From the NCBI GenBank assembly GCA_003313425.1, contig NHZP01000099.1, positions 1-64,000 of the forward strand: a DNA stretch of 64,000 bases, in the 5' to 3' direction. The notes below the pieces were generated by a model that was given only the letters and a program-made list of their open reading frames with translations, searched no databases and was not told the DNA's origin. Shown in pieces: positions 79 through 64,000 of the stretch. The DNA is from Pseudopyrenochaeta lycopersici. Lineage: Eukaryota; Ascomycota; Dothideomycetes; Pleosporales; Pseudopyrenochaetaceae. The position numbers and the translations under genes were made by a program. Within the stretch, counting starts at the first letter, position 1, and every line of letters begins with the position of its first letter.

Positions 79-170
79 TCATATATAGGCTGCGCCACAC
101 TAGAAAAGTTGAGTTCTGGCCTGTGCGCGACCCGCACCGCCACCACGAAAATGGACATAGCCATTTTTCA
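79..170. repeat. Module 1 left end: half inverted repeat and GG-ACATAG-CC hairpin
   Basis: Begins inside the core (TCATATATA), then GGCTGCGCC, then the right arm CACTAGAAAAGTTG. The left arm is missing, replaced by telomere. A hairpin with stem AAAATGG/CCATTTT lies at 148-167, about 15 bases before the stop codon region of the rep copy. Confidence 0.9.
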
Positions 171-180
171 TTCTATCTAT

Positions 181-1360
181 CTACGCTAGATCGTCATCTA
201 CATACAGTAGATCCGCCAACTCAACCACAACACAAGGCGCATGCTTCAGATACGCCGCAATGTCAGGAACTTTCCGAGGGTCATTATCTGCATTGCACGT
301 TACAATGACTGGAAATCCCCAACTCAAATTCCGTGTTTTCGTATACCGATCGTGCGCATCAATACAAGCCTGCCCACCAAGTATTTCTCGCCAATACCGG
401 TACTTACCAGACCCAAAATTGCTGAAATCGATGTCGTTTAACACGAGATGCGACGCATCCTGGTCATAATTACCAAGGTTCCACTGATTGGACATGGCCA
501 TGGGCTTGGGCCCTGCACGCAAAGCCCATTCTGTCTTTCCTAGCCTCGATGGACCAACAAGAATGAGGGGGACAGGTCTACCCTTATATGACCCCCCAAT
601 GTAACTTTTCCGCCAATCCTCCATGGCGACCGGGACACGCCATTGCTTCAGGGGTTCCCCAGAGTCTACCCACCCTCGTCCAGGCGTGCCTTTCTTCTCG
701 TTAGCCAGATAGGACGAGTACGCGTTATAAAACTTGATAAATCCCATAGGATCCAGTTCCATCAACATCCGTTTCGCTTTAATGTAATCAGGTTCCACCA
801 GCACCTCAGCGAACTTGCGCTTCCGAGACTCAGAACTACTGAGTGACTCGATCCTCGTCCCAAAAAACACCGAATCATCATACTTAAAACAGTAATTCTG
901 TGTGTTTTCCAAAAAATCAGACTCCCCGCTGATACGGGCGAGGCACCGAGAACCGAATAGCCTCTGTATCCACTGTGCCATCAGACAGATAAATTCGAAA
1001 ATGTTGGTGTGCATCCACCCAATTCGTCCGACGCGTGAACCGAAACACTGCGTGATAATGAGGCTTCCCATCCTCATGGCGCTCTTGACAACCGTAAATC
1101 TCCGTACCAGGAGGCATCCGCTCCTGAAGAAGATTGTAAAATTCGGACGCGTCCTCCAGACGACTCTGTGACCACGTTACAAGAACAACGTTGACCCTCA
1201 ACGCGAAAGCTTCCCTTTCCCCACACCCATCCGGGAGGTCATCGACTACGCTCGACGCACTTCCTTGCGTACTACACGAAAACAAAGACGCAAAAGATGT
1301 CCGCCTGGACGACGGTCCCACCGTAGAAATATCGCACGTCTCTACTGTAGGCTCCGCCAT
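181..1360 (-). pseudogene. rep: Rep gene copy, frameshifted (module 1)
   Basis: Second copy of the Rep gene found intact at 50713-51891. It has one extra C in the run at 924-927 (four C here, three in the intact copy at 51456-51458). The shift falls after the HUH motif and before the YxxK tyrosine, so the reading frame from the ATG at 1360 gives only 147 residues: motif I and the HxH motif but no catalytic tyrosine and no helicase. The downstream part stays open in the other frame. I saw no other difference by eye. The break is in a homopolymer, so a sequencing error is possible. Otherwise this telomere-proximal copy is dead or expresses a truncated protein. Confidence 0.85.
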
Positions 1361-1399
1361 AATATCGCTCCACGATAGCGCGCTACATATCGGCCAGAG

Positions 1400-1820
1400 C
1401 GCGCATATAAATACTACCTACCTCAAGCTCCGCCAAGATACACTACTCCGTAGAAAGAGACATACTGCCCACTCCATGTGTTCCCGCCTCCACGTGACAA
1501 AAAGGCTAGCGCTTACAGGGGGCAGAGGCCCTAAACCCCAGGTGGTTTAACGCTTCGCTTCTCGTTCCACTCGAGGCCCTGCTTAGATGTAAAGCCGTCG
1601 TGGTCCCGAGCACAAGGCTCCTGACCACTTGACAACTTTCTAGTGAAAGGAATCATATATAGGCGGAACGCCACACTAGAAAGTTGTCGTGGCTGGGGAG
1701 TGACCTCCCCGCACACCAAGGAATGCCTGAACGGCATGTACCTCCAGAACCGCGCTAAACTGCGCACAGGGCAACTGACAACTTTTTTTTGCGCCACACC
1801 CTGGAGCACTTCGTGATTTT
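1400..1820. repeat. Module 1|2 junction
   Basis: TATA (rep) near 1404-1411, CTACTCCGTAG hairpin, no CCAAT palindrome, S1 AAACCCCAGGTGGTTT, left arm at 1633, loop stem GGCGGAACGCC, right arm ending 1686. The module 2 side is the type-B 3' region with a collapsed second repeat at 1777-1799. From 1820 to 2233 there is A/T-rich sequence in which I recognise nothing. Confidence 0.85.
1468..1520 (-). promoter_or_regulatory. Rep/capsid-class upstream element (copy 1)
   Basis: Block running from CCCACTCCATGTG through a CACGTG box to GGCTAGCGCTTACAGGG. It occurs upstream of both rep copies, the capsid-like gene and module 35, and replaces the CCAAT palindrome used by most other modules. CACGTG is a classic E-box/G-box type site. 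The binding factor is unknown. Confidence 0.6.
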
Positions 1821-2233
1821 TTTTTGGTTTTTTTTCCAAAATACTGCACGCAAATAGTAACTACTACCAACCACGCTTCCCTCTGTGCACGCACCCTAAC
1901 CTGAAGAACAATACTATACTACACACATCAGCTTCACTAACAATAAAATCTAAACCCTACGTACCGGCTATCTCCAGACATTCGCGCACGTCTACGAGGG
2001 GCGGAAGCATGACGAGTAGAGCGTTCTCATCGCAGTCTACCATACAACCACATACGTACGACAAACCATGTTCTACTAATAGTAAGCGACCCTAACTCTC
2101 ACACAAATGCATCGTTCTCCTACCAGCGAATAACAATACCGTGCGCTCCCTACCCCCACACGCTCCGCAGTGAATAGTGCACGCTAAAAAACAGCAGGAA
2201 AATGCTATACACTCTGTAGGAACAGGTGGATGG

Positions 2234-2506
2234 CTAACACGAGCTTGCCACCAGCCACAGCACTACAACGCCATAGAATACAAGAACAACACTTGTATAC
2301 GCACGTCGCCTCCGCCCAAAAGACGTGACAGGATAGCTGAGCACAAGCAGGATCCAGAGTAGTCCCCATACCTGATAGACCACCGCCAACCATGCTAAAA
2401 GCGCCCCGAGGCCACCTAACCGGGCGCTACAGCTCCACATAAGACCAACTTGGTCAAACACAGCAAGAAGAACGAACGCGCTGCTTACCACCACCACCGT
2501 GACCAC
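2234..2506 (-). CDS. Small hydrophobic protein, second reading frame of module 2
   Basis: Open frame of 90 codons beginning at a GTG, so its own start is doubtful. It is almost entirely hydrophobic, with about three membrane-length segments broken by a short basic loop (GRRRR), so a multi-pass membrane protein. It overlaps the upstream frame by 53 bases. A strong donor (GTAAGC at 2488-2483) lies in the overlap. Acceptors ending at 2449 (40-nt intron) or 2416 (73-nt intron) would both join the two frames, so this is probably the second exon of one membrane protein. I recognise no family. Confidence 0.45.
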   Translation of the reverse strand: MVTVVVVSSAFVLLAVFDQVGLMWSCSARLGGLGALLAWLAVVYQVWGLLWILLVLSYPVTSFGRRRRAYTSVVLVFYGVVVLWLVASSC

Positions 2507-2714
2507 GCTCCACGTGACTGCAAGCCGAACACGGGCAAGACCCTAACCTGTCGTCAGCGGACTCACACGCCGGGTACAAAGCTCCACTGTAACAAACCAG
2601 CCGCCTCCGTCGAAGCCTGCGATAGACACGGCCCGCTGTCCACAGCAGCCACACTAAAAGGCCTCCTTGGGCATAAGCAAGGGCTGCAACCCATAGCAAC
2701 ACCGCATCGTCCAT
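2454..2714 (-). CDS. Small membrane protein, first reading frame of module 2
   Basis: The first ATG in frame is at 2714. The frame has an N-terminal membrane segment of about 22 hydrophobic residues followed by a very basic stretch (RRLRRRRL), then a Cys-rich, Gly-rich tail. Such an order suggests a single-pass anchor with a cytoplasmic basic side. The TATA box is at 2928-2938, leaving a leader of about 190 nt. The tail overlaps the donor described for the next frame, so the natural C-terminus is likely the hydrophobic second exon. This is the only clearly membrane-directed module in the window. Confidence 0.45.
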   Translation of the reverse strand: MDDAVLLWVAALAYAQGGLLVWLLWTAGRVYRRLRRRRLVCYSGALYPACESADDRLGSCPCSACSHVERGHGGGGKQRVRSSCCV

Positions 2715-2920
2715 ACCGTACTTAACCAAGTACCTAGAGCGTCACCAACGCACGTCGAAATCCGACAATACTTCGCCCAACGGCTCCTTCGTAACTGGCA
2801 CACTGCCAGCTAAGTAGTGGAACACTCCACAACAACAGGCCCACTAGCCAGGCTGATCCTCAGCAGGGTACCAACCTGTTCTAATGAACATCACACTCCG
2901 TGAGCGGGGGGAGGGCCTTC

Positions 2921-3380
2921 CCCCCCTTATATATATACCTATCCAGCCCTTGCGCGACGCCAAGACCACCTAGTCCCTAGATGGCAGAGTCCTGCACACT
3001 CCCTGCTGTCCATATTCATAGACCAATTAGATCAAAGATCAAAGAAATCAGGCTCAGCAACGTCATCTGACAACATATCCATGTCATGCTGCGCTTACTA
3101 AGTGCATTGCCCCTAAACTACGAGTAGTTTAACGTTCCACTGCCCACTCCGTAGGCGGCCAAAGCTTACAGGTAAAGCCGTCGTGGTCCCGAGCGCAAGG
3201 CTCTCGACCACTTGACAACTTTCTAGTGAAAGGAATCATATATAGCACTCGAAAGTTGAGAGAATGGGCCCGTGCGCGCAAAAATAGCGCCACAGCATCC
3301 CAACGTGACTCTCCCGAGCCACAGCATCCTGACTCAGCCTGTCTTCCAGCCACACAGGAATTGGACTTAGCAATTTTTTT
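2921..3380. repeat. Module 2|3 junction
   Basis: TATA 2928-2938, CTAGTCCCTAG, palindrome with CCAAT, S1 AAACTACGAGTAGTTT, an unusual S3 with GCCTAC/GTGGGC stem, left arm 3216, short right arm (CTCGAAAGTTG) ending 3258. The GG-ACTTAG hairpin of module 3 is at about 3356-3376. From 3380 to 3654 nothing is recognised. Confidence 0.85.
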
Positions 3381-3654
3381 TTAACACAAAACTGACGTTT
3401 AGCGTACAAATACTCCAACAATGCCACACATGCCTCATACGACCAATGTCATCAATAAACGCTAACGCCCTCATGTTAGCCAACATGCGCAAAACACTTG
3501 CCAAAAACGTACCTTAGTTAGGGAAACACCAATATCCCCATAAAATACTCCATACCACACAACTCCGTGTACCCAACATAAAAGCCGTACACCTTGAAGT
3601 GATGTAACAACAAGGTCACCATATCGCCACAACACAAAGTTCTTGACCAGACTT

Positions 3655-4287
3655 CTAACCGGTCCGTAGGCAAACGGGAACGCAATACTCCATAATCGGC
3701 TCAAAATCCGGACGTACAACATACGGCCTAAGGGCAGCTGGGTCTGAGATCGTTCCATCCAAAAGTTCGGCATACCCGAACAGCGTTAACTGACGACAAA
3801 CAGCAAACGACTCCGTATCGAGCTCCAAGCCGGTTCTGTCAAACCCAATGCCGAAACATCCCAACGACACCTGGTCCTCACAAGCGTCGCTCCACTGGCA
3901 AAGTATCGACACCGCAAATACGCACATATTGCGACTTTGTGCTGCCTTGACAACAACGGCCGCCTTCCAGACACGCGGCGCAAAGGTAAACCTACGCGAA
4001 CAAGACCCTACCCGGATCTGCGCAGGAAAGACGACGAGTACATCAAACACGTCGAATAAATCGCCATCCGCGGCCTCGCTTCGACTAGACAAAACAGGCC
4101 TTGCTATCCACGCATCGGCACTACGTTGACCACTCATCGTGGGGTTCATCAAGTAGCGATGAAAGGCTTTGCTGAAGTCCTCCACACTTAACATCTTCCC
4201 TCCGGGAACAAGCGTATAGCGTATTACCGCAGACCGAAGTCGAACTTCGCACCGCCTCCGCGCAGAATACTCCTTTCCAGTTGGCAT
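3655..4287 (-). CDS. Unrecognised protein, possible degenerate Rep-endonuclease fold (module 3)
   Basis: 210 aa from the ATG at 4287, about 90 bases from the TATA box at 4377-4384; the open frame extends three codons further to a GTG. There is no WWxTKESG motif and no visible intron. The order of short segments is reminiscent of a CRESS Rep N-terminus: a hydrophobic strand (VIRYTL), a strand where an HUH motif would be but without histidines (VFDVLVVF), then FGYAEL near residue 180 where a YxxK motif could sit. Module 6 shows a similar order. This resemblance is weak and made by eye, so the function is unknown. Confidence 0.6.
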   Translation of the reverse strand: MPTGKEYSARRRCEVRLRSAVIRYTLVPGGKMLSVEDFSKAFHRYLMNPTMSGQRSADAWIARPVLSSRSEAADGDLFDVFDVLVVFPAQIRVGSCSRRFTFAPRVWKAAVVVKAAQSRNMCVFAVSILCQWSDACEDQVSLGCFGIGFDRTGLELDTESFAVCRQLTLFGYAELLDGTISDPAALRPYVVRPDFEPIMEYCVPVCLRTG

Positions 4288-4374
4288 CGCAACCACGCTG
4301 ATAACAAGGAAAAAAATAAGAAGGGTTAAATAGCATTAAAAGGCAGTCACTGCACCCCGACACTACGGGGACCC

Positions 4375-4980
4375 CATTTATATACACCCTTCTGAGGAAT
4401 TAACCGACGCAGCCAAACCCGACTGCGTCAACGTACGCAATTCGTGCTTCACACCAACCTATCCAGGATGAGAAAACCAATCTCCGAAACGCCGCACTAC
4501 ATACGACATATCCAATCACCGTCCAGTGATAACCAATGCCAAGCAGGACTATTCCATAGTCGGCCATATCCTGCCCACTCCCCGTGTCTATGAACATAGA
4601 CCAATTAGATCAAAGATCTTGTGAGGCACAGCAATAGTCATCTGACCCGCACCGTCCGTGCTCTGCTCTGCTTACTAAGTGCAGCGCCCCTAGCCTACAA
4701 GTAGTCTACCGCTTCGCTACTCGTTCCACTCGCCGGCCCTGCTTACATGTAAAGTGACAAGGGTAAGGAGCGCAAGGCTCCTGACCACTTGACAACTTTC
4801 TAGTGAAAGGAATCATATATAGGCTGCGCCACACTAGAAAAGTTGTCAGGGAGGCCCGTGCCCCCCCATGTGCCACATCTCCATGTGACTCTGCATGGCC
4901 CTCCAGCCACAGGGAAATTGGACTTAGCCAAAATTTCTTGAGAGATTTGATGTTCCATCCCAAGGGCGCCCACACCCTTA
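4375..4980. repeat. Module 3|4 junction
   Basis: TATA 4377-4384. A second CCAAT and a CTATTCCATAG hairpin occur before the TCTATG..CATAGA palindrome. S1 AGCCTACAAGTAGTCT, S2 CGCTTCGCT, S4 GGAGC/GCTCC, left arm 4793, long right arm with GGCTGCGCC ending 4845, AAGGG/CCCTT hairpin 4962-4979. Confidence 0.87.
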
Positions 4981-5234
4981 ACAATGAAGCTCCGCACCAC
5001 GATTTCTTCGTTTCCAGAAGAGCCCTACCATTACTAAATCAGTCCTATTTTCTAATACGAAAAAAAAGTAAAATACAATAAACATACCTATTCTCCTACA
5101 CAAATAGGCTATACTATACCATAGAGCTTTATGATACTAACGTATTATAAAAAGCACAAAGTCAGCATGTACTCTGTCTCAAAGACTATAGCATTACCAA
5201 TGCCATTCCATAAGGCAAACAAACTACATCGTGG

Positions 5235-6021
5235 TTACGACCATCCACGACAGGAGAGCCAGTCCTCTCCTGACGGTTGTACTATTCCTACTGCATCGCT
5301 GAGTCCACCAAACCAACATGTCCTTGACGACCGCCATAAACGGTAGAATCGGTCTAGACGAACAAACCTTGGTGATGTATGGGATAAAAACCCACAAGGC
5401 TCACACCTACTTTTAACAGTACACGCGCAGTCGACCCGCGTACTATACCACCCTTCCTCTAAAACGTAGAACAATCTACGTACCGTAACAGAAGAAGCAT
5501 CCGCAGCTTGCCCACTAGGCAATGCAAGAAGAGGGATAACGCGCTCCACCAGCACATCCAGTGCCTCTAACGAGAGCTGCGCAAACGCAACATAGCTCCA
5601 CACCACGCCCCTAACCAACGTATCCACCTTGAAGACCAGGAGAGACTGCCGGGTGGTACCCTGTGCACAGAGTTCTTTATAGTCCTCCAGACAAAACCGG
5701 TGCTTCTGAGAAATACACTGTCGAGGGAGCTGCCCGCTCTCCTTGGTCAACCACGCGGATTGTCTCCCCGACACATCGAGATAGAGAGTAAGAGAAACGC
5801 AGTGTCCCACCAGCTCTGTGACGATATCAGTTGGGAGGGGATACCCAACCTGAGAAAAGAAGTACATACTTACGTTGAACGTGCCTCCGCACCCATTGAA
5901 GATTGTTGGCTGTCCCAGGAAAGGGCTCCCCCTTCTCGCCAGGCAAGAGCGTATCTACTGCTAACAAGCGACTATCATCCATAGCCTCTATGGGAGCACC
6001 CTGTCCCTGTAGCGACTCCAT
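5235..6021 (-). CDS. WWxTKESG-family accessory protein, two exons (module 4)
   Basis: Family description is given here. Exon 1 is 6021-5874 (ATG after GCG, the usual start context). The 58-nt intron 5873-5816 has donor GTAAGT, branch CTGAT and acceptor CACAG, and falls after the first base of a codon, as in the other spliced members. The product is 242 aa. Exon 1 ends in a PFPGT...VRRHV segment. Exon 2 has the TKESG motif (here SAWLTKESG), a strand-like LLVFKVD...FAQLS stretch, CxCTx5CxPC (possible zinc site), WFGGLSDAVG and DWLSC. No signal peptide or membrane segment is seen. I do not recognise the family; its wide diversification among same-size modules suggests an adaptive role toward host or virus. 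Confidence 0.78.
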
Positions 6022-6074
6022 CGCAAAGCAAAAAGAATGAAAAAAAGACACTCCGTACAAACAGCTCCCCTGTT

Positions 6075-6540
6075 ATTATTATATACCTCTGTCTCTTGCA
6101 CCCTGCAAAGACCAACTACTACATAGTAAGCAGCGGAGTGCCCATTCCATGTTGTCTACATTCATAGACCAATCAAATGACTGATTGAAAAAAAGAGTGG
6201 CAAAGAAGAGTCAGATGACCCGCACCGTCCGTGCTCTGCTCTGCTTACTAAGTGCATTGCCTCTAAACTAATTCTAGTTTAACACTCCGTTGCGATCTCC
6301 AATCGCAGGCAAAGCTTACGTGTAAAGTGGCAAGGGTAAGGAGCGCAAGGCTCCTGACCACTTGACAACTTTCTAGTGAAAGGAATCATATATAGGCTGC
6401 GCCACACTAGAAAAGTTGAGTCGTGGCTGAAAAATTTTTCAGCACCCCGGTAAAACGTGACCTCCAGCCACAGCAAAAATGGACTTACGCATTTTTCGAG
6501 AGGTTTGATGTTCCATCTGAAGGGCTCCCACCCTTACTGA
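6075..6540. repeat. Module 4|5 junction
   Basis: TATA 6078-6086, CTACTACATAG hairpin, S1 AAACTAATTCTAGTTT, S2 CACTCCGTTG, S3 stem GCGAT/ATCGC, S4 GGAGC/GCTCC, left arm 6366, GGCTGCGCC, right arm ending 6418. The module 5 hairpin has stem AAAATG/CATTTT with loop GACTTACG. AAGGG/CCCTT 6520-6535. Confidence 0.87.
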
Positions 6541-6806
6541 CCGAGCTCCGCACTACAATTTCTTCATTGTTCTTACTACTATGCAGAATCTGTACAACAT
6601 AATTAATTTGTGTTACAATATATACGGATTTTTTTTTTTTTTTAAAAAAAGAAACAGGAAATAAAATACCTATACCATGAGACAGGTACTTACCATTCCA
6701 AGCTATACAACTTCGTATACATCGACTCAACACCTATATCTATAGGTATAAAGGACCACCCCTCTTTAATTACAATAGAGTACTGCCACTCCATGAGCCA
6801 CATAAA

Positions 6807-7600
6807 CTACATCCTACTTGGACAAGTCAGCCAGTCAACACCATGCGGCTGTACTACTCCAACTGCATTGGTAACACCGCTCCACCAGTTACACCCTGTA
6901 CATAAGAATAGATTATCAAATCTACTGATCCAAAGGAACCTCCGCGAAGTATGGCTTACAAACCCACAAGGCTCACACCTTCTCTGCAGCGTACAGGCGC
7001 AGTCCACGCACGTACTGTACCACCCATGGTTCAACATAATGAACAATCTGTTCTCAAATAGGGCATTTGCCAACTGCCCCTCCGGCAATGCAAGAAGAGG
7101 GATAACGCGCTCCACCAGCACATCCAGTGCCACTACTGAGAGCTGAGCAAAAACAACGAAACTCCATACACGCCCATGGGCCGGTGCATCCACCTTAAGA
7201 ACCAGGAGCGACTGCTGTGCGGCTCCCGAAACACAACCTTCCTTGTGACCTTCTAGACACTCCATGTGGTGTTGTTCCACACACTCGGCAGGAAAGCGTC
7301 CACTCTCTTTGGTAATCCACCAAGATCGCCTACGCGAAAGACCTACGTAGACAGTAAGGGACATCCCATACTCCACAAACTCTGTGATGATGTTAGTCGG
7401 GGCCCTCCCCCAACTTCTTCCGTGTCTAGGGAAAAGGCAAGACACTGACTGGGCACGTGATCTCTCACGCCTTCAAACTCCATGGGCGTCTCTACAGACA
7501 ATGTACAGGAACTTCCTTCCTGTATCCTATCTATTGCAGATAGAAAGGTGGATGTGCTAGTGGTCCCCACATCAGCACCCTGCCCGACACGCGACTCCAT
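6807..7600 (-). CDS. WWxTKESG-family accessory protein, two exons (module 5)
   Basis: Exon 1 7600-7450, intron 7449-7382 (68 nt, donor GTCAGTG, branch CTAAC, acceptor CACAG), exon 2 7381-6807, 241 aa. Exon 1 is of the second subtype (EEGSS-like region, then VRDHVPS). Exon 2 keeps SWWITKESGRFP, the FAQLS strand, CACTx5CEPC and DWLTC. The third motif reads WWSGVTNAVG, with Asn in place of the usual Asp. The closest relatives by eye are modules 4 and 27. Confidence 0.78.
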
Positions 7601-7674
7601 CGCAATATAGCAGTAGAACAAAAGAAAACACTACATAATGTAGGACACATCCGTGAAAACAGATCCTCTGTTGT

Positions 7675-8140
7675 TCTTATATAGACATGTCCATGCTATC
7701 TCTGCCAAGACACACTAGTCCCTAGCAGGCAGAGGGCAGCCCATTCCATGACTCTATATTCATAGTCCAATCAGAAGCCTGATTAAATAAAATGTGGGTA
7801 ACCTGAGATCAGATGACCCGCACAGTCCGTGCTTCGTGTTACTTACCAGGGCTCTTGCCTCTAGCCTCTAAAGAGCCTAACCCTTCGGTACTCCCTCCAG
7901 TCGCGGGCAAAGCTTAGAGTAAAGCCGTCGTGGTCCCGAGCGCAAGGCTCTCGACCACTTGACAACTTTCTAGTGAAAGGAATCATATATACACAAGAAA
8001 GTTGAGGGCAGGGTCTGTGCGCTCTCCGCGCCACACCCCCCAACGTGGCTCGCCGTGCCCTCCAGCCACAACAAAAATGGACTTACGCATTTTTTCTTCA
8101 GATTTGATGTTCCATCTACAAGGGCTCCCACCCTCGAGCA
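7675..8140. repeat. Module 5|6 junction
   Basis: TATA 7676-7685, S1 AGCCTCTAAAGAGCCT, S2 CCCTTCGGT, S4 GAGC/GCTC, left arm 7963, short right arm (ACAAGAAAGTTG) ending 8004. The AAGGG hairpin at 8120-8135 is imperfect. The stretch 8140-8503 is an A/T-rich tail with nothing recognised. Confidence 0.86.
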
Positions 8141-8503
8141 CTTAGTCAATTTTCTGCTCCGCTTACCATCAATCCTGCCCACACTGCTCCCACAGGCATA
8201 TATGCCCGGGAAAAAAATTGTGCGCACACAACACACACATCCTAGTCAATTCAAGTCAACACTACTCCTCATAGCAATGGAATAGACACTGACCAATACT
8301 ACAGAGGACGCATCCTGCCTGCCGTGTCCCACTATTGAGACCCTATGCATCCAATGAACATGCTCTGAACACAACGCAAAATTAACAGAGCACAACCTCA
8401 TAGCGTACGAAATCTATACCACATGGTATAACAAAGACAACTGACATATACCTTAAGCACAGTACCTATACCCAAACGCCTTCATTATGCGCAAATAAGA
8501 CTA

Positions 8504-9067
8504 TTACCGTAACTCCTCCTCCTCCGCGTCCAATAAAAGAGGAGTGCCACACCGCCAGAACTCCAATGGCGCCGAAAACATAGACAACTCTTGGTCAAAC
8601 GCGTAACCAAAGGGCGCACCTCCTGTAGTACCCCAACGCTCTGCATTGGCATCACCGTACCCTCCAGAACACGCCTTCACGCAAGGCCTCCGTCCCCAAA
8701 GCGTAACATGTTTTCCCAGATCAAGCGCTTCGCGACTACTGCATCCACCAAAATCAATGAACACGTCTACCCAGACGAATTGGCAGTAGGGCGCACGGCA
8801 TGCTGGCCCCCGGATACCACCATACAACACACTGCACACAGGATCACCAACAGGCGAGGCATCCGCGTCAAGTGCACCAGCACCAAGGCAAGCTGCATGC
8901 CAACGTGTCCCTACCGGCAAAGACTTGCGAAGAATCGAAGATACCTCCGCTCCGCTCGGGGAAAACACCTGTTTAAACCGCAGCTTCACAAAGCGAACCC
9001 CTCCTGGGCATCCCGTAACCGGAACTCCTGAATGTATGCGCCAACGATCCCACCGAGGCACAATCAT
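8504..9067 (-). CDS. Unrecognised protein, possible degenerate Rep-endonuclease fold (module 6)
   Basis: 187 aa from the ATG at 9067; TATA box near 9227-9235. It ends in an acidic tail (DAEEEELR) and has no WWxTKESG motif. Segment order can be laid against the Rep at 50713-51891: a strand (VKLRFKQ), an LPVGTRW stretch where Rep has MPPGTEI, a strand WVDVFIDF where Rep has HYHAVFRF, and GYAFDQ where Rep has YCFKYDD. If this holds, both metal-binding histidines and the lysine after the tyrosine are gone. It may be a paralogue of module 3. The alignment is by eye only. Confidence 0.6.
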   Translation of the reverse strand: MIVPRWDRWRIHSGVPVTGCPGGVRFVKLRFKQVFSPSGAEVSSILRKSLPVGTRWHAACLGAGALDADASPVGDPVCSVLYGGIRGPACRAPYCQFVWVDVFIDFGGCSSREALDLGKHVTLWGRRPCVKACSGGYGDANAERWGTTGGAPFGYAFDQELSMFSAPLEFWRCGTPLLLDAEEEELR

Positions 9068-9224
9068 AACACAACGCTACGCATAGAGTCAGCCAAAGTT
9101 ACTACCAGTACACAGATCCTCTGCACGCATACCACGCGAGATCTATACAATGCAGTCGCAATGTAAAAAGAGACGAAACTACACATAATAGAGAACACTC
9201 CGTGAGCGGGGAGAGAGCCTTCCC

Positions 9225-50705: not shown

Positions 50706-50712
50706 TATCTAT

Positions 50713-51891: not shown

Positions 51892-51929
51892 AATATCGCT
51901 CCACGATAGCGCGCTACATATCGGCCAGA

Positions 51930-54184: not shown

Positions 54185-54930
54185 CTATGGTACTCCATAC
54201 ACAGACCCTGTAGATGTAGTAAAACAACAACTAAGCCACGGGAACTTAGTAATATCTCTCACCTTCGGGATATCGAGCGCATCTGTAACCCCAGTAAACC
54301 ACCTCCGCTCTGGACACGGATATACACCTGTAAATCCATTCCGCCACACCCACATCGCTCCGCTTCCTACGTTACTTCGGCAAGCCTGACAAACAGCGGC
54401 TAATGGACTACAGTCACACTCTGTAGACACCCCGTATCCACCTCTTGACAAGAACGACGACATAAGCTGCGCCGCGTCCGCTGACGAAGCCACAACATCC
54501 CATTGGGGCAATACTCGCCCAAGTAGATTACACACGCTATACGTAGAAAGCTCCGCAAGACAAACCTCCGGTTGTTGGCTGTCAATGACAAAAACAACAG
54601 CAAGATACGCTGTTGGATAAGGCTGTCGAGCTTCATCCCATACACAACTCGAACATTCTGTCTCCCGACAACGCTGGGGCAGCTGCCCGCTCTCCTTGTT
54701 GAGCCACCACTGTACAGACTCTGCACGAGCTACGCAGGTCACAGACACAGACCGTACCACAAAGTCTGTGACTCCATTAGCGACTGGCCAGCCGGCGCAC
54801 TACGATACAAACCGTTGAGATACACCTCTAACAACTTCAGCGTATCCACTGTGGAAAGCGGCCCTACCGGCACACCTGAAGTAATAGATGCCACGCTCCC
54901 GCTGCCACAACACTCCGTAGAGCGATCCAT
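54185..54930 (-). CDS. WWxTKESG-family protein with shortest intron (module 35)
   Basis: Exon 1 54930-54804, intron 54803-54766 (38 nt, donor GTAGTG, branch CTAAT, acceptor CACAG, GGCTGGCC palindrome), exon 2 54765-54185, 235 aa. QWWLNKESGQLPQRC, LAELS, CDCx6CQAC, WFTGVTDALD, PWLSC. It is the only family member whose upstream region has the rep/capsid-class element (55149-55200) rather than CCAAT. Confidence 0.75.
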
Positions 54931-55071
54931 CGCACCTAAGCTATGTACAACATGTACTGTCGTATGACGCTTATCTAAGCTTCATCATATTAACTCCATA
55001 CCCTTCGCTCCCGAAGAAAAAAAGGACATACCTTAACGCACTCCTTGCGTGATTGCACAGTGGCGCAAACC

Positions 55072-55508
55072 ACTTTTATATTGAAAAGCGTCTATCCAGC
55101 AATTGGACTACGCCAAGAGAAGATCATTCCATAACAAGCGATGAACCGCCCACTCCATGTGTTCCCGCCTCCACGTGACAAAAAGGCTAGCGCTTACAGG
55201 GGGCAGCGCCTCTAGGCTTTAAAAAGCCTAACCCTCCGGTGCTATCTCCAATAGCAGGCCCTGCTTAACGGTAAAGTGGCAAGGGTAACCAGCACGAGGC
55301 TGGTGACCACTTGACAACTTTCTAGTGAAAGGAATCATATATAGGCGGAACGCCACACTAGAAAGTTGACGTGGCTGGAGAGTGACCTCCCGCCCACCCA
55401 CTACTGGGTGAGGACCATGTACCTCCAGAACCGCGCTAAATCGCGCACAGGGCAATTGACAACTTTTTTTTTGCGCCACACTGTGTCGTACTTAGCCAAT
55501 TTTTTTTT
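55072..55508. repeat. Module 35|36 junction (type B)
   Basis: TATA 55074-55082, rep/capsid-class element, S1 AGGCTTTAAAAAGCCT, S2 CCCTCCGGTG, S3 perfect stem GCTATCTCCAATAGC, S4 CCAGC/GCTGG with loop ACGAG, left arm 55315, GGCGGAACGCC, right arm ending 55369; then as module 16 with collapsed second repeat near 55457-55482. Confidence 0.87.
55149..55200 (-). promoter_or_regulatory. Rep/capsid-class upstream element (module 35)
   Basis: Copy of the CCCACTCCATGTG ... CACGTG ... GCTAGCGCTTACAGG block upstream of the module 35 family gene. This is the one case outside the rep and capsid modules. Confidence 0.6.
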
Positions 55509-55714
55509 TGAAAAAATACTCTCTGCAGATACTTACAAGTAAATCCTGCAAACAATGAACAAGCAGCCACCACTGCACAAAAAACCAAAGGCTGCTAAGG
55601 TAAAAACGGTCCCCCACACATATTCCATCGTAAATAGAACCATCTACCAATAATACTCACAAATATATATGAGACAACACATATACTGTGCCATACAAGA
55701 TCTTTGCCTCCGCA

Positions 55715-56510
55715 TCAACAATGCGTACACAACCCTAAGGGCGACGCCCAAACATCTAAACAGGTTAACCAGTCAAGCCTCGACGGATGCACCATACCGA
55801 CAGCATCACTGCACCCAGAAAACCATCCATGGGGCCCATCAGGACACACTCCGCTAAACTTGTCCCAACGTGTAAACCGCTGATGCGTAATGGGCAAGCT
55901 GCAACAGGGCTGACAAGACGCCTGCAAAGTGCACCCACACGAAAATGATCCAGAAAAGCCTCCGCAATCCAACACGGAGAATAATCCATCAATAGTAAAG
56001 GCATCCGCCAAGGCCCCTTCCGATACCCAAACACTGGGCAATACGCGATGCCAAAACATCCGCAAGGTGATCAAGGAGAGTTGCGCAAACGCGACAACGC
56101 TCCGCATCTGCATAGCGCTAACAGCAATATCGACCTTCCAGACGAGTAGCGCTTTAGGGGAAACACAACCAAAACATGAGGTAGAGAAGGTAGCCGAGCA
56201 TCCGCACACTACCTTCGAACCACACGTTGGGGGGAGCTGCCCACTCTCCTTGGTGAGCCACCAACAGTACTCGCCCTGCGACTTGACATGACACGTCACC
56301 GACACTTGCTGTTCCACAAGGTATACAACCATGTTAGTTGTTCCCCCAACCAACCCAATGGACACGTGACTTACAGCAAACGTTACACATTAGCCACTCA
56401 ATGGCTGCAGCGTCCCCTACAAAGGGAGGGCCATACATGCCCTTACTAAGCCTATCAGCCGTCAAGAGGAGCGCGTTCTCTGTGCGCTCTGCTACGCGTG
56501 GCAACTCCAT
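55715..56510 (-). CDS. WWxTKESG-family protein lacking aligned acceptor (module 36, copy of 16)
   Basis: Same translated exons as 24132-24927, including the TAT in place of the acceptor AG. Exon 1 56510-56375. Modules 16 and 36 are 31.6 kb apart and both 1577 bp. Conservation of the defect in both copies means it arose before duplication and is not an assembly slip at one site. Confidence 0.65.
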
Positions 56511-56602
56511 AGCCTACACAAAACCATGCGGGTCAGAAAACTACCCGATCTGACTGTCCGTTGAGGGAGTGCACCACCTCCGTGACAACAGAGGAACTGT
56601 TG

Positions 56603-57083
56603 TGGTTATATACGTCCCTTCCTTGTGCGCCGCCAAGAGCACCTAGTCCCTAAGAGGCAGAACCATGCCAATTCCATGCGTCCATATTCATAGACCAATC
56701 AGACTAAAGCTCTGAAGTAGAGTGGGCAACCCATGGTCAGATGACCCGCACTGTCCGTGCTTCGTGTTGCTTACTAAGTGCATGGCCCCTAAACTACTCG
56801 TAGTTTAACGCTCCGCTGCCTAGTCCCTAGGCGTGCCCTGCTTAATTGTAAAGTGGCAAGGGTAACCAGCGCAAGGCTGGTGACCACTTGACAACTTTCT
56901 AGTGAAAGGAATCATATATACACAAGAAAGTTGACAGAATGGGCCCGTGCCCATCACAACCCGTCTGTGCGCAGAACCCGCCACAGCTAACGTGACCCTG
57001 CGTGACTGTCAGCCACAGGGAAATTGGACTTAGCCAATTTTTTGAAGACTCGATGTTCCATCCTGAGGGCTCCCACCCTTACT
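56603..57083. repeat. Module 36|37 junction
   Basis: TATA 56606-56613. S1 to S4 as 16|17, left arm 56892, then the short right arm (ACAAGAAAGTTG) ending 56933 instead of the long one, so divergence starts right after the core. Hairpin AAATTGG-ACTTAG-CCAATTT, GAGGG/CCCTT 57065-57080. Confidence 0.87.
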
Positions 57084-57336
57084 AACCAAGCTCCGCCATA
57101 CAAATTCTTTGTTACTCTTCCTACTGCCGTATAACCCCTACATTATAACGTTAGTATATATTAGACTAAATAGTAACTCAATTTTCAAGGAAAATAAATA
57201 AAATAAAAGACATATACAACACATACTTGCTATTCAAAAATCTACACCCATAACCATAGCTTTAAAGGCGCCACCGGTCCCTTACTAAGACATGACACTG
57301 ACTGAATACGTCCTCCTATAACAACCTGCCTATTCT

Positions 57337-58121
57337 TCATAGCCGGCACGTTAACCACTGCTCTCCTTCCGGCTGCATTATCCCTACTGCATCACTGATC
57401 CTAATAAACCAATAAAGCTTTGACACCGGCCTTACAGAAGAAAATCCTTCTGAACGATTAAACCGCCGTTTTTCATAAGACACTGACTCGCACTCTTTGC
57501 AACGCTTATCGAGCTTGCACCCGCAGTCCACGGAAGTTCCATAACACCCAAGGTCTAACCCGTAAAACACTGTAGTAACAACAGAGACATCCGCCGTCTT
57601 GCCGGAGGGCAATACGAGAAGAGGTAGGACGCGCTGCACAACCACCTCCAGTACCTCTACCGAGAGCTTCGCAAAAGTAACATGGCTCCGCACCACCCTA
57701 TCCTGATGGAGCGCCTCCACCTTGAGGACCAGGAGCGACTGCCGGGTAACCCCCTCTGCACACAGTTCCTTGTGGTACTGTAAACACTCCGTGTGCTTCT
57801 GAGAAACGCATTCGCGAGGAAGCCGTCCACTCTCTTTGGTCACCCACCAAGATTGTCTCCCCGACAAATCCAAGGAGAGAGTGAGAGAAATACCGCGTTT
57901 CATGAATACTGCACTCATGTCAGATAGGCTCCCCTACTGCCATCGCCAACGACACAAAGAGATCACCTACCCGGCACGTGACCCCTCACTACGTTAAACT
58001 CTGCCTCTGTCTCTACCGACACCGCGCAAGAAGATCCTTCTTGCAGCCCATCTATCGTCGATGGGAGGATAGGGGTGCCAGCGAAACCCGCCTCAGCCTC
58101 TTGCCCAGTGTGCGATGCCAT
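57337..58121 (-). CDS. WWxTKESG-family accessory protein (module 37)
   Basis: Exon 1 58121-57971 (found by reading back from the donor; EEGSS-type with VRGHV at its end), intron 57970-57909 (62 nt, donor GTAGGT, branch CTGAC, acceptor GCAG), exon 2 57908-57337, 240 aa. SWWVTKESGRLPREC, LHQDRVVRSHVTFAKLS, CGCKx5CKEC, QWLTC. The third motif is altered to WFIRISDAVG. It is close to module 10 in the middle of exon 2. Confidence 0.78.
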
Positions 58122-58185
58122 CGCAGTGTAGAAAAGATGAAACTACACAAAGTAGAACACTCCGTGCGCGGGGAGGGGGCTCCCC

Positions 58186-58662
58186 TCTTTTATATGTCGA
58201 TGTCTATGCTGTCTTTGCCAAGAGACACTAGTCCCTAGCAGGCAATAATGTGCCCCTTCCATGCTGTCTACGTTCATAGACCAATCACAGTACTGATTGA
58301 GAGAAAAGTGGGCAAGCAGTGATCATCTGACCCGCGACGTCCGTGCTCTGCTTTGCTTACAGGGGCTTTTGCCTCTAGCCTCTAAAGAGCCTAACCCTTC
58401 GGTACTCCCTCCAGTCGTGGCAACGCATACAATGTAAAGTGTCAGGGGTCAAGGAGCGCAAGGCTCCTGACCACTTGACAACTTTCTAGTGAAAGGAATC
58501 ATATATAGGCTGCGCCTCACTAGAAATGTTGACTGTGGCTGGAGTGTGACCTCCCGCCCACCCACTTCTGGGTGAGCACCATGTACCCCAAAACGACGCT
58601 AAATCGCGCACAGGGCAATTGACAACTTTTTTTTGCGCCACACTGTGTCGGACTTAGCCAAA
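58186..58662. repeat. Module 37|38 junction (type B)
   Basis: TATA 58188-58196, AATCA/TGATT hairpin, S1 AGCCTCTAAAGAGCCT, S2 CCCTTCGGT, S4 GGAGC/GCTCC, left arm 58479, mismatched right arm ending 58531; then as module 8 with collapsed repeat near 58621-58644. Confidence 0.87.
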
Positions 58663-58821
58663 TTTATTCGAAAATTTTATGAACCGCATAACGTACCAAT
58701 GTCGCCGCAGTACATATATTACCAAAGAAATATAAGACTACCAAAATACTTGCCTTGTCTACGTCAAAAACAGCCCGCACTTCACCATCACAGCTATACG
58801 CTGAAGGTGTCGCATCATACA

Positions 58822-59645
58822 TTAACACCATAACGCACCATGGACATACCTGCACGATAACCAATCTACCCGCGATGGAAACACCAACCCAACAGCATCG
58901 CTAAATCCATTAAACCATCTATGCGATGGGAGCGGAAATGCACCGCCAAATACATCAAGACGTGCAAACCCACGCTGCCACCGACCTAGCAACAGACACG
59001 AAGTGCAACACTTTCCAACTGTGCATCCACAAAGGGCACCACTAGAGAAATGCCCATTCTCTACAGCGCGGAACACCGCCTCCACTTCATCCGCCCTAGC
59101 AGCATCAGCTGCAATCATAGTAACGAGTGGCAGTACCTGCCGCACAAACACATTGAGCATATCGACAGACAGCTCCGCAAACGCAACGAAGCTCCGCAGT
59201 TGATCGTATTCTCCCACAACATCGACCTTCCAGACGAGACGCGCCCGAGACGCACCATCCAAATCGCCAGAACCCTCATAGCGATCTAAGCAGCTACAGT
59301 CTTTAAGCCTACCACAAGACATGGGAGGCTGCCCGCTCTCCTTGGTGAACCACCAGACCCGTTCCCCGTTCGCCTGCACGTGACACGTAAGAGAAATATC
59401 GTGTTCTACCAACACTACATCAACATCAGTTACTCTGAGTTTCAACCAACTCCACGGAGAAACACAACAGGGTACCCACTGTGAGAGTATTCTTCAATAA
59501 TCCCTAACTCGTCTTCAGTCCCTGCAAACGGGTCCCCCTTGCAACCCTCTTCGAGGGCGTCCATAACAAAAGACGTATACTCCGCTACACTTGGCCGGTC
59601 CACAGGCCTCCTAACGATATAAAACTCTCCGGGATGCAACTCCAT
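58822..59645 (-). CDS. WWxTKESG-family accessory protein (module 38, copy of 8)
   Basis: Same translated product as 11475-12298; intron 59479-59415. Left and right neighbours both differ from those of module 8. Confidence 0.8.
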
Positions 59646-59729
59646 CGCCCTGAACAACGCGTTCAAAAGAGAAAAGAGACGAAACTACACATAATAGAGA
59701 ACACTCCGTGAGCGGGGAGAGAGCCTTCC

Positions 59730-60222
59730 CCTCTTATATGTCGATGTCCATGCTGTCTCTGCCAAGAGCACCTAGTCCCTAGCAGGCAATGTGGTGCCCC
59801 GTCCCTGCGTCTACGTTCATAGACCAATCAGATAAGAACTCTGATAGAGTGTGGGGCCAAGGGTGTCTCCCACGTGCAACCCAGCGTCATCTGACTCACA
59901 CGGTCCGTGCTGCGTGTTGCTTACAGGGGGCAGCGCCTCTAGCCTACAAGTAGTCTAACCCTTCGGTACTCGTTCCACTCGCGGGCCCTGCTTAGGGTAA
60001 AGCCGTCGTGGTCCCGAGCGCAAGGCTCTCGACCACTTGACAACTTTCTAGTGAAAGGAATCATATATAGGCTGCGCCACACTAGAAAAGTTGAGTTCTG
60101 GCCTGTGCGCTCTCCGCGCCACACCCCCAGGTGACTCTGCATGGCCCTCCAGCCACAACAAAATTGGACTTAGCCAATTTTTATTTTTTTTGATGTTCCA
60201 TTTTAAGGGCTCACACCCTTAC
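59730..60222. repeat. Module 38|39 junction
   Basis: TATA 59732-59740. S1 to S4 as 8|9, left arm 60041, then GGCTGCGCC and long right arm ending 60093 (module 9 has the short form at this point). Hairpin AAATTGG-ACTTAG-CCAATTT, AAGGG/CCCTT 60205-60220. Confidence 0.87.
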
Positions 60223-60363
60223 CAACCAGCCTCCGCCATATTATATAATATTATAATATACTGCAAAACACATCCTATACAAAAAAGATCCCTTAGTTAG
60301 CGTCTACACCCCAAATGAAAATTGCAGTCCCTGCACAAAACAAAATCAATAACATACCGTAAA

Positions 60364-61217
60364 CTATCCACTGTCTCTATCTCCAACGGACTCCCTACTA
60401 CATATGTTATGGCAAGGACAACGCATCCACGATCCAAAACCGTCTCCAAGATCGCCAACCGCATCCGAAACACCAGACCAATACGGCGGGAGGTTGCAAG
60501 TGTCAAACTCAGGACACGGGGCATAGCGCCAACTGCGATACCGCACTGCATTCTCATCCTCGCCAGGTCGCAGGGCGCGCGACGACATACAAGGTAACCA
60601 GTGACAAATATGAACAACTGCCTGCCAGTTCCCCTCACGTACATGCTTGAGCAACACAGGCAAAATTTGATCCTCAAACCACTGGACGCTTACTAACGTC
60701 AGAGGGGCCACAAGAACCTGACATTGTCCAGGTCGGCCTAAGACTTTTACAACAAAAACTGCACTCCGTGCCCTTAACTCAAGCGCCCCACTCACTTGAC
60801 CAAGAAGCCTAACGAATCCCTCACAAAGGAGAGGCAAGCAACCGCTCTCCTTGGTCAGCCACCATTGAATGCCCGGTTCCGGAGAGACCTCACAGGTCAC
60901 AGACACCTCAGCGCACCTAAACACTGTACTCCGTCAGCGACGTCCGCATGACAGACTCTAAACGAGCAGAGAAATAACACACAATCTACGAACCGTTTTA
61001 CAAACGAGACTGCCCGATCCCCTGCGCGGAACACAACTGGTTGCGCAGGAAACAGAGAAGCTACCCATAGCTGAACAAGCTCCTGTCCCCAGATTGCAAA
61101 GCCCTCCGCGTTATCGCTGTCCGTTACCAAACTTGCAAGAACTACGTCAGGTGGGCGTCCACCCCACCGAAAAGACGGAGCCGCACCGGCTGCTGCACGC
61201 TTCGCGACTGCGCCCAA
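60364..61217 (-). CDS. Divergent WWxTKESG-family protein, start uncertain (module 39)
   Basis: Intron 60982-60924 (59 nt, donor GTGTGT, branch CTGAC, acceptor ACAG) joins the frames in phase 1. Exon 2 60923-60364 has QWWLTKESGCLPLLC, a VLVAPL strand, YWSGVSDAVG and SWMRCPC, but not the CxC...CxxC cluster. Exon 1 is open to a TTG at 61217 with no in-frame ATG, so the true start or a further exon is unknown. There is no convincing TATA box; the CCAAT and CAGAT/ATCTG hairpin remain near 61421-61446. It may be decaying. Confidence 0.6.
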
Positions 61218-61399
61218 CGACGGCGCACGGGGAGAAGACGTTGCTAAATAAACTCAGCAATCTGCTCCGCAAACAATCCCTATACAGGGCTCACGACCTA
61301 CCGGACATCCGTGTATCCGGACGTAATGTACCATTCATTGCGGGATGCAATGAGAGGAAAGAGGAGGGACAGAAAGGCCTGCCAGGCCCCTCGATGCCC

Positions 61400-61827
61400 G
61401 CTCGCCAAGCACAAGTCCGTGCACCCAATCAGATGAAAAATCTGACAGCATGTGAGGGCAGGGGTGCTCCTCACGTGCAAAGCAGCGTCATCTGACCCGC
61501 ACCGTCCGTGCTCTGCTTTGCTTACAGGGGCTCTTGCCTCTAGCCTACAAGTAGTCTACCGCTTCGCTACTCCCTCCAGTCGTGGGCAACGCATACAGGT
61601 AAAGTTGCAAGGGCTGGCAGCACGAGGCTGCCGACCACTTGCTCAACTTTCTAGTGAAAGGAATCATATATAGGCTGCGCCTCACTAGAAATGTTGACTG
61701 TGGCTGGAGTGTGACCTCCCGCCCACCCACTTCTGGGTGAGCACCATGTACCCCAAAACGACGCTAAATCGCGCACAGGGCAATTGACAACTTTTTTTTG
61801 CGCCACACTGTGTCGGACTTAGCCAAA
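61400..61827. repeat. Module 39|40 junction (type B)
   Basis: Promoter half reduced, S1 AGCCTACAAGTAGTCT, S2 CGCTTCGCT, S4 GGCAGC/GCTGCC with loop ACGAG and the AAGTTGCAAG/CTTGCTCAACTT outer stem as in 17|18, left arm 61644, mismatched right arm ending 61695, then as module 8. Confidence 0.86.
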
Positions 61828-61986
61828 TTTATTCGAAAATTTTATGAACCGCATAACGTACCAATGTCGCCGCAGTACATATATTACCAAAGAAATATAA
61901 GACTACCAAAATACTTGCCTTGTCTACGTCAAAAACAGCCCGCACTTCACCATCACAGCTATACGCTGAAGGTGTCGCATCATACA

Positions 61987-62810
61987 TTAACACCATAACG
62001 CACCATGGACATACCTGCACGATAACCAATCTACCCGCGATGGAAACACCAACCCAACAGCATCGCTAAATCCATTAAACCATCTATGCGATGGGAGCGG
62101 AAATGCACCGCCAAATACATCAAGACGTGCAAACCCACGCTGCCACCGACCTAGCAACAGACACGAAGTGCAACACTTTCCAACTGTGCATCCACAAAGG
62201 GCACCACTAGAGAAATGCCCATTCTCTACAGCGCGGAACACCGCCTCCACTTCATCCGCCCTAGCAGCATCAGCTGCAATCATAGTAACGAGTGGCAGTA
62301 CCTGCCGCACAAACACATTGAGCATATCGACAGACAGCTCCGCAAACGCAACGAAGCTCCGCAGTTGATCGTATTCTCCCACAACATCGACCTTCCAGAC
62401 GAGACGCGCCCGAGACGCACCATCCAAATCGCCAGAACCCTCATAGCGATCTAAGCAGCTACAGTCTTTAAGCCTACCACAAGACATGGGAGGCTGCCCG
62501 CTCTCCTTGGTGAACCACCAGACCCGTTCCCCGTTCGCCTGCACGTGACACGTAAGAGAAATATCGTGTTCTACCAACACTACATCAACATCAGTTACTC
62601 TGAGTTTCAACCAACTCCACGGAGAAACACAACAGGGTACCCACTGTGAGAGTATTCTTCAATAATCCCTAACTCGTCTTCAGTCCCTGCAAACGGGTCC
62701 CCCTTGCAACCCTCTTCGAGGGCGTCCATAACAAAAGACGTATACTCCGCTACACTTGGCCGGTCCACAGGCCTCCTAACGATATAAAACTCTCCGGGAT
62801 GCAACTCCAT
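61987..62810 (-). CDS. WWxTKESG-family accessory protein (module 40, copy of 8)
   Basis: Same translated product as 11475-12298; intron 62644-62580. Third copy; separated from module 38 by the single module 39. Confidence 0.8.
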
Positions 62811-62894
62811 CGCCCTGAACAACGCGTTCAAAAGAGAAAAGAGACGAAACTACACATAATAGAGAACACTCCGTGAGCGGGGAGAGAGCCTTCC

Positions 62895-63408
62895 CCTCTT
62901 ATATGTCGATGTCCATGCTGTCTCTGCCAAGAGCACCTAGTCCCTAGCAGGCAATGTGGTGCCCCGTCCCTGCGTCTACGTTCATAGACCAATCAGATAA
63001 GAACTCTGATAGAGTGTGGGGCCAAGGGTGTCTCCCACGTGCAACCCAGCGTCATCTGACTCACACGGTCCGTGCTGCGTGTTGCTTACAGGGGGCAGCG
63101 CCTCTAGCCTACAAGTAGTCTAACCCTTCGGTACTCGTTCCACTCGCGGGCCCTGCTTAGGGTAAAGCCGTCGTGGTCCCGAGCGCAAGGCTCTCGACCA
63201 CTTGACAACTTTCTAGTGAAAGGAATCATATATACACAAGAAAGTTGAGGGAAGGGGCCCGTGCCCAACACAACCCATGTCTGCGCTCCCCGCGCCACAG
63301 CCCCCATGTGACCCAGCATCGCCTCCAGCCACACAGGAATCGGACTTAGCCAATTTTGAGACAGAATTGATGGAACATCAACAGGGTCGACACCCCCCAC
63401 AATATAGC
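62895..63408. repeat. Module 40|41 junction
   Basis: TATA 62897-62905. S1 to S4 as 8|9, left arm 63206, short right arm (ACAAGAAAGTTG) ending 63247; from there it equals module 23. Confidence 0.87.
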
Positions 63409-63649
63409 TTCGGTATAAATAATAATGCATTGTTCGCACAATCCAATAACACCTACATAATACAGTCAGCACTCATTCCTGCGTACAACTTTTGTCTTAG
63501 AAAAAGAAGTTAAGAAAACAAAAAGAGCGACAAAATAAAAACATTGCGCACAATCCTCCACATGCTACCGCCCTCCTTGTATATCCATAACTAAAGAACA
63601 TCCTCTCTACTACTCACAAATATTACCACTGTTCGTTACAACAGCCAGA

Positions 63650-64000
63650 CTACATCCGTCGTGTTAATGATACAGTATGGTTGGGGAGCGGAGGCGACAA
63701 TTCCGCGGCCAAAGCTACCTCAAAAGCTCGCGCAACGCTCTCTACACAGCGATCACACGCCGTAAACCCACGGGCACCAAGGAAAATGGACTTAGCCATT
63801 TTTTTGAGAGATGGTGGTTCCTCCGATATCTGCGGAGACCCTAGACCTGCCAAGCGTGTCTCAAAAAACTCCATCACCTTGACTGAGTTCCCAAGCAGGG
63901 CCCCATCCTGCTGCACAAGACGCGGCAAAACACCCGTTACAACCGCATCCAGCGCCTCCACCGAAAGATCCCCAAACGCAACCATGCGACGTGGGGTGCC
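63650..64000 (-). CDS. Chimeric WWxTKESG-family protein, 3' part only (module 41, copy of 23)
   Basis: Equals the C-terminal part of the gene at 35216-35916, including the captured hairpin (about 63783-63802). The gene continues beyond the window. Presence of a second copy shows that the hairpin capture is a fixed, replicated state. Confidence 0.7.
   Translation of the reverse strand, partial: GTPRRMVAFGDLSVEALDAVVTGVLPRLVQQDGALLGNSVKVMEFFETRLAGLGSPQISEEPPSLKKMAKSIFLGARGFTACDRCVESVARAFEVALAAELSPPLPNHTVSLTRRM

Follow-up and report, generated by a model that had tools for sequence, protein, structure and literature searches.

Arrays of unit-length, putatively viral modules joined to telomeres at a hairpin origin in Pseudopyrenochaeta lycopersici

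The module arrays

The first 64,000 nucleotides of contig C99 (NHZP01000099.1, 80984 bp) in the 62.7 Mb, 188-contig assembly of the fungus Pseudopyrenochaeta lycopersici, hereafter the window, hold a head-to-tail array of unit-length modules that meet one another, and the telomere repeats, at a single point in a hairpin; one of them encodes a predicted replication protein (Rep) of the kind found in circular Rep-encoding single-stranded (CRESS) DNA viruses. Labels such as C4 and C99 denote contigs of this assembly throughout. In its gamma-tubulin, one exon matches a cluster named for Alternaria at 92% and Periconia macrospinosa at 90%, both members of the Pleosporales, and metagenome proteins at 94%, which makes a pleosporalean host likely. 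CCCTAA telomere repeats occupy positions 1-78 and are followed by 40 complete modules at 77-63223 and a partial one running to 64000, all in one orientation and delimited by origin motifs; the array extends just beyond the window to 64786, where it meets host DNA via telomere repeats. The module start, CCTTTCACTAG, occurs 40 times on the gene strand of the window, each time immediately 3' of the origin half TATATGATT, and not once on the opposite strand, and the 40 origin motifs are separated by 39 spacings of 1556-1607 bp. An earlier note on this DNA had described modules of this spacing, orientation and shared boundary, and all three descriptions hold; the array it reported is present with 40 rather than 39 complete modules, and its figure of at least 33 different modules agrees with the 34 exact sequences in the window, or 33 after merging of variants at least 99% alike. 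The features of the window are as follows.

1-78, no strand: terminal telomere repeats, CCCTAA on the plus strand and TTAGGG on the gene strand
77-88 (-): module-to-telomere joint in the origin loop, gene strand TATATATGATT|AGGGTTAGGG
77-1650 (-): U39, Rep module with a one-indel frameshift relative to the intact Rep module; possibly an assembly error (indel-only difference)
1635-1688 (-): example of an origin hairpin between two modules, 15-bp stem, GATT/CC loop joint at 1650/1651; 40 such in the window
1651-3233 (-): U07
3234-4810 (-): U17, open reading frame (ORF) 3655-4296
4811-6383 (-): U38, paralogous family, ORF 5235-5867
6384-7980 (-): U37, paralogous family, ORF 6807-7445
7981-9557 (-): U36, ORF 8504-9067
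9558-11149 (-): U35, paralogous family
11150-12711 (-): U03, paralogous family; identical copies at 58497 and 61662
12712-14296 (-): U16, paralogous family
14297-15879 (-): U15, paralogous family
15880-17462 (-): U15, identical adjoining copy
17463-19055 (-): U34, paralogous family
19056-20611 (-): U06, paralogous family
20612-22193 (-): U33, ORF 21071-21838
22194-23749 (-): U06, identical copy
23750-25326 (-): U08, paralogous family
25327-26896 (-): U32, paralogous family
26897-28467 (-): U14
28468-30064 (-): U05, longest member of the paralogous family, ORF 28775-29758, 327 aa
30065-31630 (-): U31
31631-33211 (-): U13, paralogous family; one parent of the C61 reciprocal chimeras
33212-34789 (-): U12
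34790-36362 (-): U11, paralogous family
36363-37944 (-): U10, paralogous family
37945-39519 (-): U30, paralogous family, ORF 38310-39134, 274 aa
39520-41101 (-): U10, identical copy
41102-42669 (-): U09, paralogous family, ORF 41487-42362, 291 aa; member used for folding
42670-44240 (-): U29, paralogous family
44241-45847 (-): U02, capsid-like ORF 44477-45721; 8 identical copies genome-wide
45848-47427 (-): U28, paralogous family
47428-49016 (-): U27, paralogous family
49017-50608 (-): U26, paralogous family
50609-52181 (-): U01, intact Rep module; 9 identical copies genome-wide
50713-51891 (-): Rep ORF, 392 aa, putative HUH, YxxK, Walker A and Walker B motifs
52182-53763 (-): U25, ORF 52670-53263
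53764-55332 (-): U24, paralogous family
55333-56909 (-): U08, identical copy
56910-58496 (-): U04, paralogous family
58497-60058 (-): U03, identical copy
60059-61661 (-): U23, paralogous family
61662-63223 (-): U03, identical copy
63224-64000 (-): innermost module, matching U11 fully up to the window end; host telomere-repeat joint at 64786

The earlier note had proposed a single chromosome-end array, and had suggested a comparison with other telomeres of the same genome. That comparison places arrays with the same joint on at least 18 contig ends: we read 18 array bases on 18 contigs in sequence, and three further bases (C23 right, C118, C174) are known from the joint pattern only. A 24-base origin motif, allowing up to two mismatches, has 891 matches genome-wide (526 + 365) against 0 for the reversed pattern, which excludes a chance origin of these matches; among the matches listed, about the first 100, the motif lies on the plus strand near left contig ends and on the minus strand near right ends. 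At 1579 bp each, some 900 units would make up about 1.4 Mb of arrays, an arithmetic estimate. In the stretches that we fetched, the 111 complete modules range from 1536 to 1609 bp (mean 1579.4, standard deviation 13.1), which extends the near-constant unit length noted earlier beyond the window, and they comprise 68 different sequences, or 62 at the 99% level. Applied to the 40 window modules, the Chao1 estimator yields about 92 types, and applied to 99 modules from stretches selected by place it yields 114 (109 and 120 on exact sequences, from slightly fewer modules); these figures are rough, as the arrays are non-random samples.

The joint and its telomeric sites

The origin is a 15-bp-stem hairpin (z -6.9), with the joint in its loop at GATT/CC. 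The fetched stretches contain CCTTTCACTAG 141 times: 121 copies lie directly after TATATGATT, 14 are preceded by the origin half plus 1-5 AGGGTT repeats, and six by host DNA plus telomere repeats (C4 with one extra G; the C23 base was assigned to this class by eye); no other sequence stands directly before any of these 141 starts. A genome-wide search that allowed 0-10 free bases between repeats and module recovered 33 telomere-to-module joints on 21 contigs, every one in the phase GGTT|CC, and 0 for the reversed pattern; 12 of them are internal tracts after an origin half, 20 are array bases or probable bases, and one is of another kind. On the opposite side, 19 of 20 module-to-telomere joints lie at GATT|AGG and the remaining one (C131) at GA|GGG. 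At the 18 array bases the module is preceded by three telomere repeats in 14 cases, two in three and one in C5, whatever the host flank, and eight of these bases (C4, C5, C10, C18, C23, C50, C54, C65) were fetched without use of the telomere pattern. Hence one Rep unit and some 60 other unit types have one predicted hairpin in common, units join one another at one point in it, and telomere repeats meet units at that same point on both sides. This joint with telomere repeats, absent from the earlier note, is the strongest feature of the system. A stem-loop origin with a fixed joint point is found here as in CRESS-DNA replicons, cleavage being predicted. As TT is common to both joint partners, the position of the nick is resolved only to two bases; GATT/CC was chosen, by analogy, as the predicted cleavage site for its likeness to TACTCTT^CA of Botrytis cinerea ssDNA virus 1 (BcssDV1; PMC10731770).

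The arrays occupy former telomeres, as comparison of flanks shows, and themselves terminate in telomeres. C177 and C179 are array-free telomeres of about 20 and 12 repeats; over 700 bp their flanks match the filled ends C83 and C92 at 99.9-100% identity (C177 against C10, 99.7%), and the filled ends keep three repeats and then continue GGGTT|CC. The flanks of C4, C101, C120 and C124 are 98-100% alike and their first modules different; likewise the start of C83 differs from those of C92 and C10, the latter two agreeing throughout the 122 bases compared. Several ends have repeat-rich subtelomeres in common (flanks of C4, C10, C83, C92, C99, C101, C120, C124, C177 and C179), which fall into at least two families.

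Pairs of identical modules share the same distal neighbour in only 2 of 41 cases and the same proximal neighbour in 2 of 39. Followed outward past the joint, the match between identical copies is lost by 46 bases before CC in 100 of 103 pairs, and by 65 bases after GATT in 99 of 104, roughly the distance over which different modules also resemble one another; these pairs are dominated by nine Rep and eight capsid-like copies and are not independent. Different neighbours, together with identity ending near the joint, imply that a common pool supplied the units at the ends, with joints added one by one. This pool was probably circular, to judge from one footprint of circle integration: in C61:1086-4230 (L029) the adjacent modules U64 and U63 are reciprocal chimeras of U03 and U13, a U03 head on a U13 body followed by a U13 head on a U03 body, with the crossover at about 231-289. 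A U13 circle integrating into a U03 unit would put the products side by side in this order, whereas a crossover between linear arrays is disfavoured because its two products would be on different molecules.

Genes of the modules

The intact Rep ORF of the window is present in nine copies genome-wide, all identical, besides broken pieces; a second window copy, in the terminal module, carries a one-indel frameshift. Several lines of comparison bear on its affinities: 1) it contains motifs that we take to be HUH, YxxK, Walker A and Walker B. 2) A profile of 14 Rep homologues matches six solved Rep chains with E values of 5.8e-6 to 4.7e-5. 3) Gemini_AL1_M of Pfam is matched by 7 of the 14 family members and Gemini_AL1 by 5. 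The protein is accordingly predicted to be a geminivirus/genomovirus-type HUH endonuclease plus helicase of the CRESS-DNA class, and the Rep module of the earlier note stands with geminivirus-type domains. A word search, which misses distant relatives, recovered 14 Rep relatives among 5.8 billion proteins, including ones in Pyrenophora tritici-repentis (52%, on a 1600-bp contig), P. seminiperda (57%, on a 242-kb contig) and Colletotrichum sojae (40%, on a 1422-bp contig); within the reach of that search, no genomovirus Rep is among the 14. A second Rep-like ORF exists in three copies, from C92:44965 onward (L035:2-544) and on C119 and C131; its nuclease part, 46% identical to Rep over residues 50-171, retains HYH and YCAK, and the sequence beyond it is divergent and lacks a helicase.

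The capsid-like ORF (44477-45721, -) has eight identical copies genome-wide. The capsid protein (CP) reading of the earlier note is putative: the label derives solely from a basic N-terminal stretch, protein searches returned no homologue, and the predicted structure model is unusable. The right ends of C65 (L050) and C89 (L049) share one truncated capsid-variant module that breaks off at an identical base (GCGAAGCCTGG); both are capped by telomere repeats and their inner neighbours differ.

Where the modules had been thought to carry different, unrelated genes, a single paralogous family of cysteine-containing proteins is encoded by 46 of the 68 module sequences (66 of 111 copies), including 23 of the 34 in the window, and all 48 matches to it lie on the gene strand. 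The other 22 types have unrelated ORFs or no long ORF. On the gene strand G exceeds C and T exceeds A in 68 of 68 types, and four-fold sites of 31 modules have G 0.34, T 0.29, A 0.20 and C 0.17; such C-poor, T-rich silent sites would be the pattern expected from long single-stranded exposure of the gene strand.

A candidate mechanism and its alternatives

We consider it likely, with a probability of roughly 0.7, that the modules are components of a multipartite single-stranded DNA (ssDNA) virus or its descendant, which Rep would nick at GATT/CC and join both to the 3' ends of telomeres and to one another. Units would exist in circular form and be copied by rolling-circle replication; Rep would nick GATT/CC, stay covalently bound to the 5' end (CC...) and transfer it to a 3' end finishing in TT, either its own GATT or telomeric GGGTT. 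The new GATT end could then be capped by telomerase or accept the next unit, and the tandem origins would let Rep in trans release units again, making the arrays an archive. The many-component CRESS virus stored head to tail at a telomere, as first envisaged, is supported by the Rep, the hairpin, the near-constant unit length, the pool of types and one circle footprint, and loses its unrelated genes; the modules may form one virus genome, or a Rep unit with a swarm of dependent units.

Several observations sit uneasily with this explanation. The window Rep protein (P0002) taken alone scores below the Pfam cut-offs. Four of 12 telomere caps (C5, C54, C65, C89) cut the module away from the origin, and the remaining one of the 33 telomere-to-module joints, C65:246653, is an internal tract after an origin cut a few bases short; together these imply that ordinary end healing also occurs. 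The tracts before modules have 1-5 repeats against 12-20 at array-free or capped ends, so that joining did not take place at the natural tip; worn telomeres as attachment sites, or cutting inside the tract, would either of them explain the 1-5 repeats (most often three). The U63/U64 chimeras and a three-module block common to C54 and C61 indicate that homologous recombination also shapes the arrays, and 17 more differences separate U64 from its parents beyond the exchanged stretch. The 5' common region is less skewed (GC 0.10; T exceeds A in only 43 of 68 types), and individual host windows reach an absolute GC skew of 0.27. Finally, several near-identical module variants differ by indels only, pointing to sequencing errors, including that in the Rep copy beside the window telomere; this suggests imperfect polishing and base errors in the assembly.

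Host homologous recombination could by itself have built the arrays had telomere-repeat circles been copied onto short telomeres by roll-and-spread, with later exchange between arrays and with Rep only making the circles. A telomeric-repeat circle is amplified onto ends as tandem arrays in telomerase mutants of Kluyveromyces lactis (PMC3486848); in our arrays 14 internal joints hold telomere repeats, and both the C61 chimeras and the C54/C61 block arose by recombination. Yet 121 of 135 module-to-module joints have no telomere repeat, rolling copies of one circle should give uniform arrays and the neighbours are shuffled, and the joints stay at one point despite long similar regions on either side. 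We regard this course of events as unlikely. Somewhat less probable still is that host enzymes break the hairpin and that the breaks are healed by telomerase or joined through TT microhomology, Rep having no part in attachment: the hairpin is strong, TT is common to GATTCC and GGGTTAG, and caps elsewhere in modules document healing, but cuts in a hairpin are expected at its base or tip and scattered, whereas joints at one point in 33 of 33 and 19 of 20 cases demand a precise nick.

Much the same low likelihood attaches to a domesticated telomere satellite, in which decayed viral units, no longer replicated as circles, are kept by the host as subtelomeric filler. Their presence on at least 18 contig ends and the 22 of 68 types outside the family, many without a long ORF, would suit such filler; an intact Rep kept identical in nine copies, a capsid-like ORF likewise in eight, gene-strand placement of all 48 family matches, a unit length held at 1579 +/- 13 bp and two telomeres still empty would not. 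An assembler that chained free concatemers of an infecting virus to chromosome ends would be consistent with the base errors seen as indel-only variants, and the order of modules within long arrays, read from the assembly rather than from reads, may contain errors. One joint phase on 21 contigs, host flanks on 18 of them, telomere caps outside the arrays, and matching empty telomeres make such an artefact very improbable.

More tentatively, and with the balance somewhat against it, the element could be virus-like with a genome spread over about 100 unit-length ssDNA circles, one Rep landing them on telomeric 3' ends so that nearly every tip is a growing, releasable archive, and units might rescue telomeres worn to a few repeats. 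If so, the parts of a multipartite DNA replicon would rise from about ten to about 100, and a chromosomal store could supply every part, with a bearing on how multipartite genomes keep their parts together. It would also mean that viruses have a site-specific route into telomeres, through nick-and-join chemistry whose product telomerase caps, and would link rolling-circle replication to chromosome ends.

Comparison with known systems

The closest match is with multisegmented ssDNA mycoviruses rather than with nanoviruses, the model first put forward. BcssDV1 has four segments of about 1.7 kb (circles of 1.67-1.71 kb); its Rep, CP and hypothetical proteins are each encoded on a circle of their own, the circles have common regions, and the stem-loop contains the cleavage motif TACTCTT^CA (PMC10731770). 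Fusarium graminearum gemytripvirus 1 has three segments (PMC10731770). The present modules resemble BcssDV1 in being unit-length, with one gene each, common regions, a geminivirus-type Rep and a stem-loop motif, here TATGATT/CC, and differ in that 1) all units have one gene orientation, whereas Rep and CP are opposite in BcssDV1. 2) In place of three or four segments, 68 unit sequences have been read and the total is estimated at roughly 90-115. 3) The units are stored in chromosomes on telomeres, and most belong to one protein family. With the multisegmented Genomoviridae the segment plan agrees, our system being known from sequence alone and having a putative CP without a homologue. The segment plan is known from multisegmented ssDNA mycoviruses and the telomere joint is the new part; we found no report of such units on telomeres in the open-access (PMC) literature, where one paper that came up concerns RNA viruses and retroplasmids of Botrytis.

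Members of the Nanoviridae have about six to eight components, infect plants, form circles of about 1 kb and are not known to be telomeric. They resemble the arrays in that every circle has a single gene beside a common region, and in the similar sizes of the circles; 34 sequences in the window alone and units of 1.54-1.61 kb speak against membership of that family. The genomes of herpesviruses of the human herpesvirus 6 (HHV-6) type contain telomeric repeats, and each integrates as a single large double-stranded DNA molecule. The likeness lies in virus DNA at chromosome ends beside telomere repeats, with possible release; unlike HHV-6, the joint here is marked by a predicted Rep nick point, and the 121 of 135 module-to-module joints without telomeric repeats do not conform to integration of that type. 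HUH enzymes also join a 5' end to a chromosomal target in the Rep-directed integration of adeno-associated virus and in Helitrons, for which we know of neither telomere targeting nor a library of unit-length components. The K. lactis roll-and-spread process resembles the arrays in placing circles as tandem arrays on many ends; it involves one telomeric-repeat circle spread by homology (PMC3486848), whereas here many unit types are joined at an origin. The uniform arrays of roll-and-spread are not seen, the distal neighbour being shared by 2 of 41 copy pairs.

Two smaller observations concern the module sequences. Many unit types have a TATA-like box near position 297, and the first 257 bases of U49 (C18:1073713) and U35 (window 9558-11149) are 97% alike with little else in common, which we read as an older exchange within the common region.

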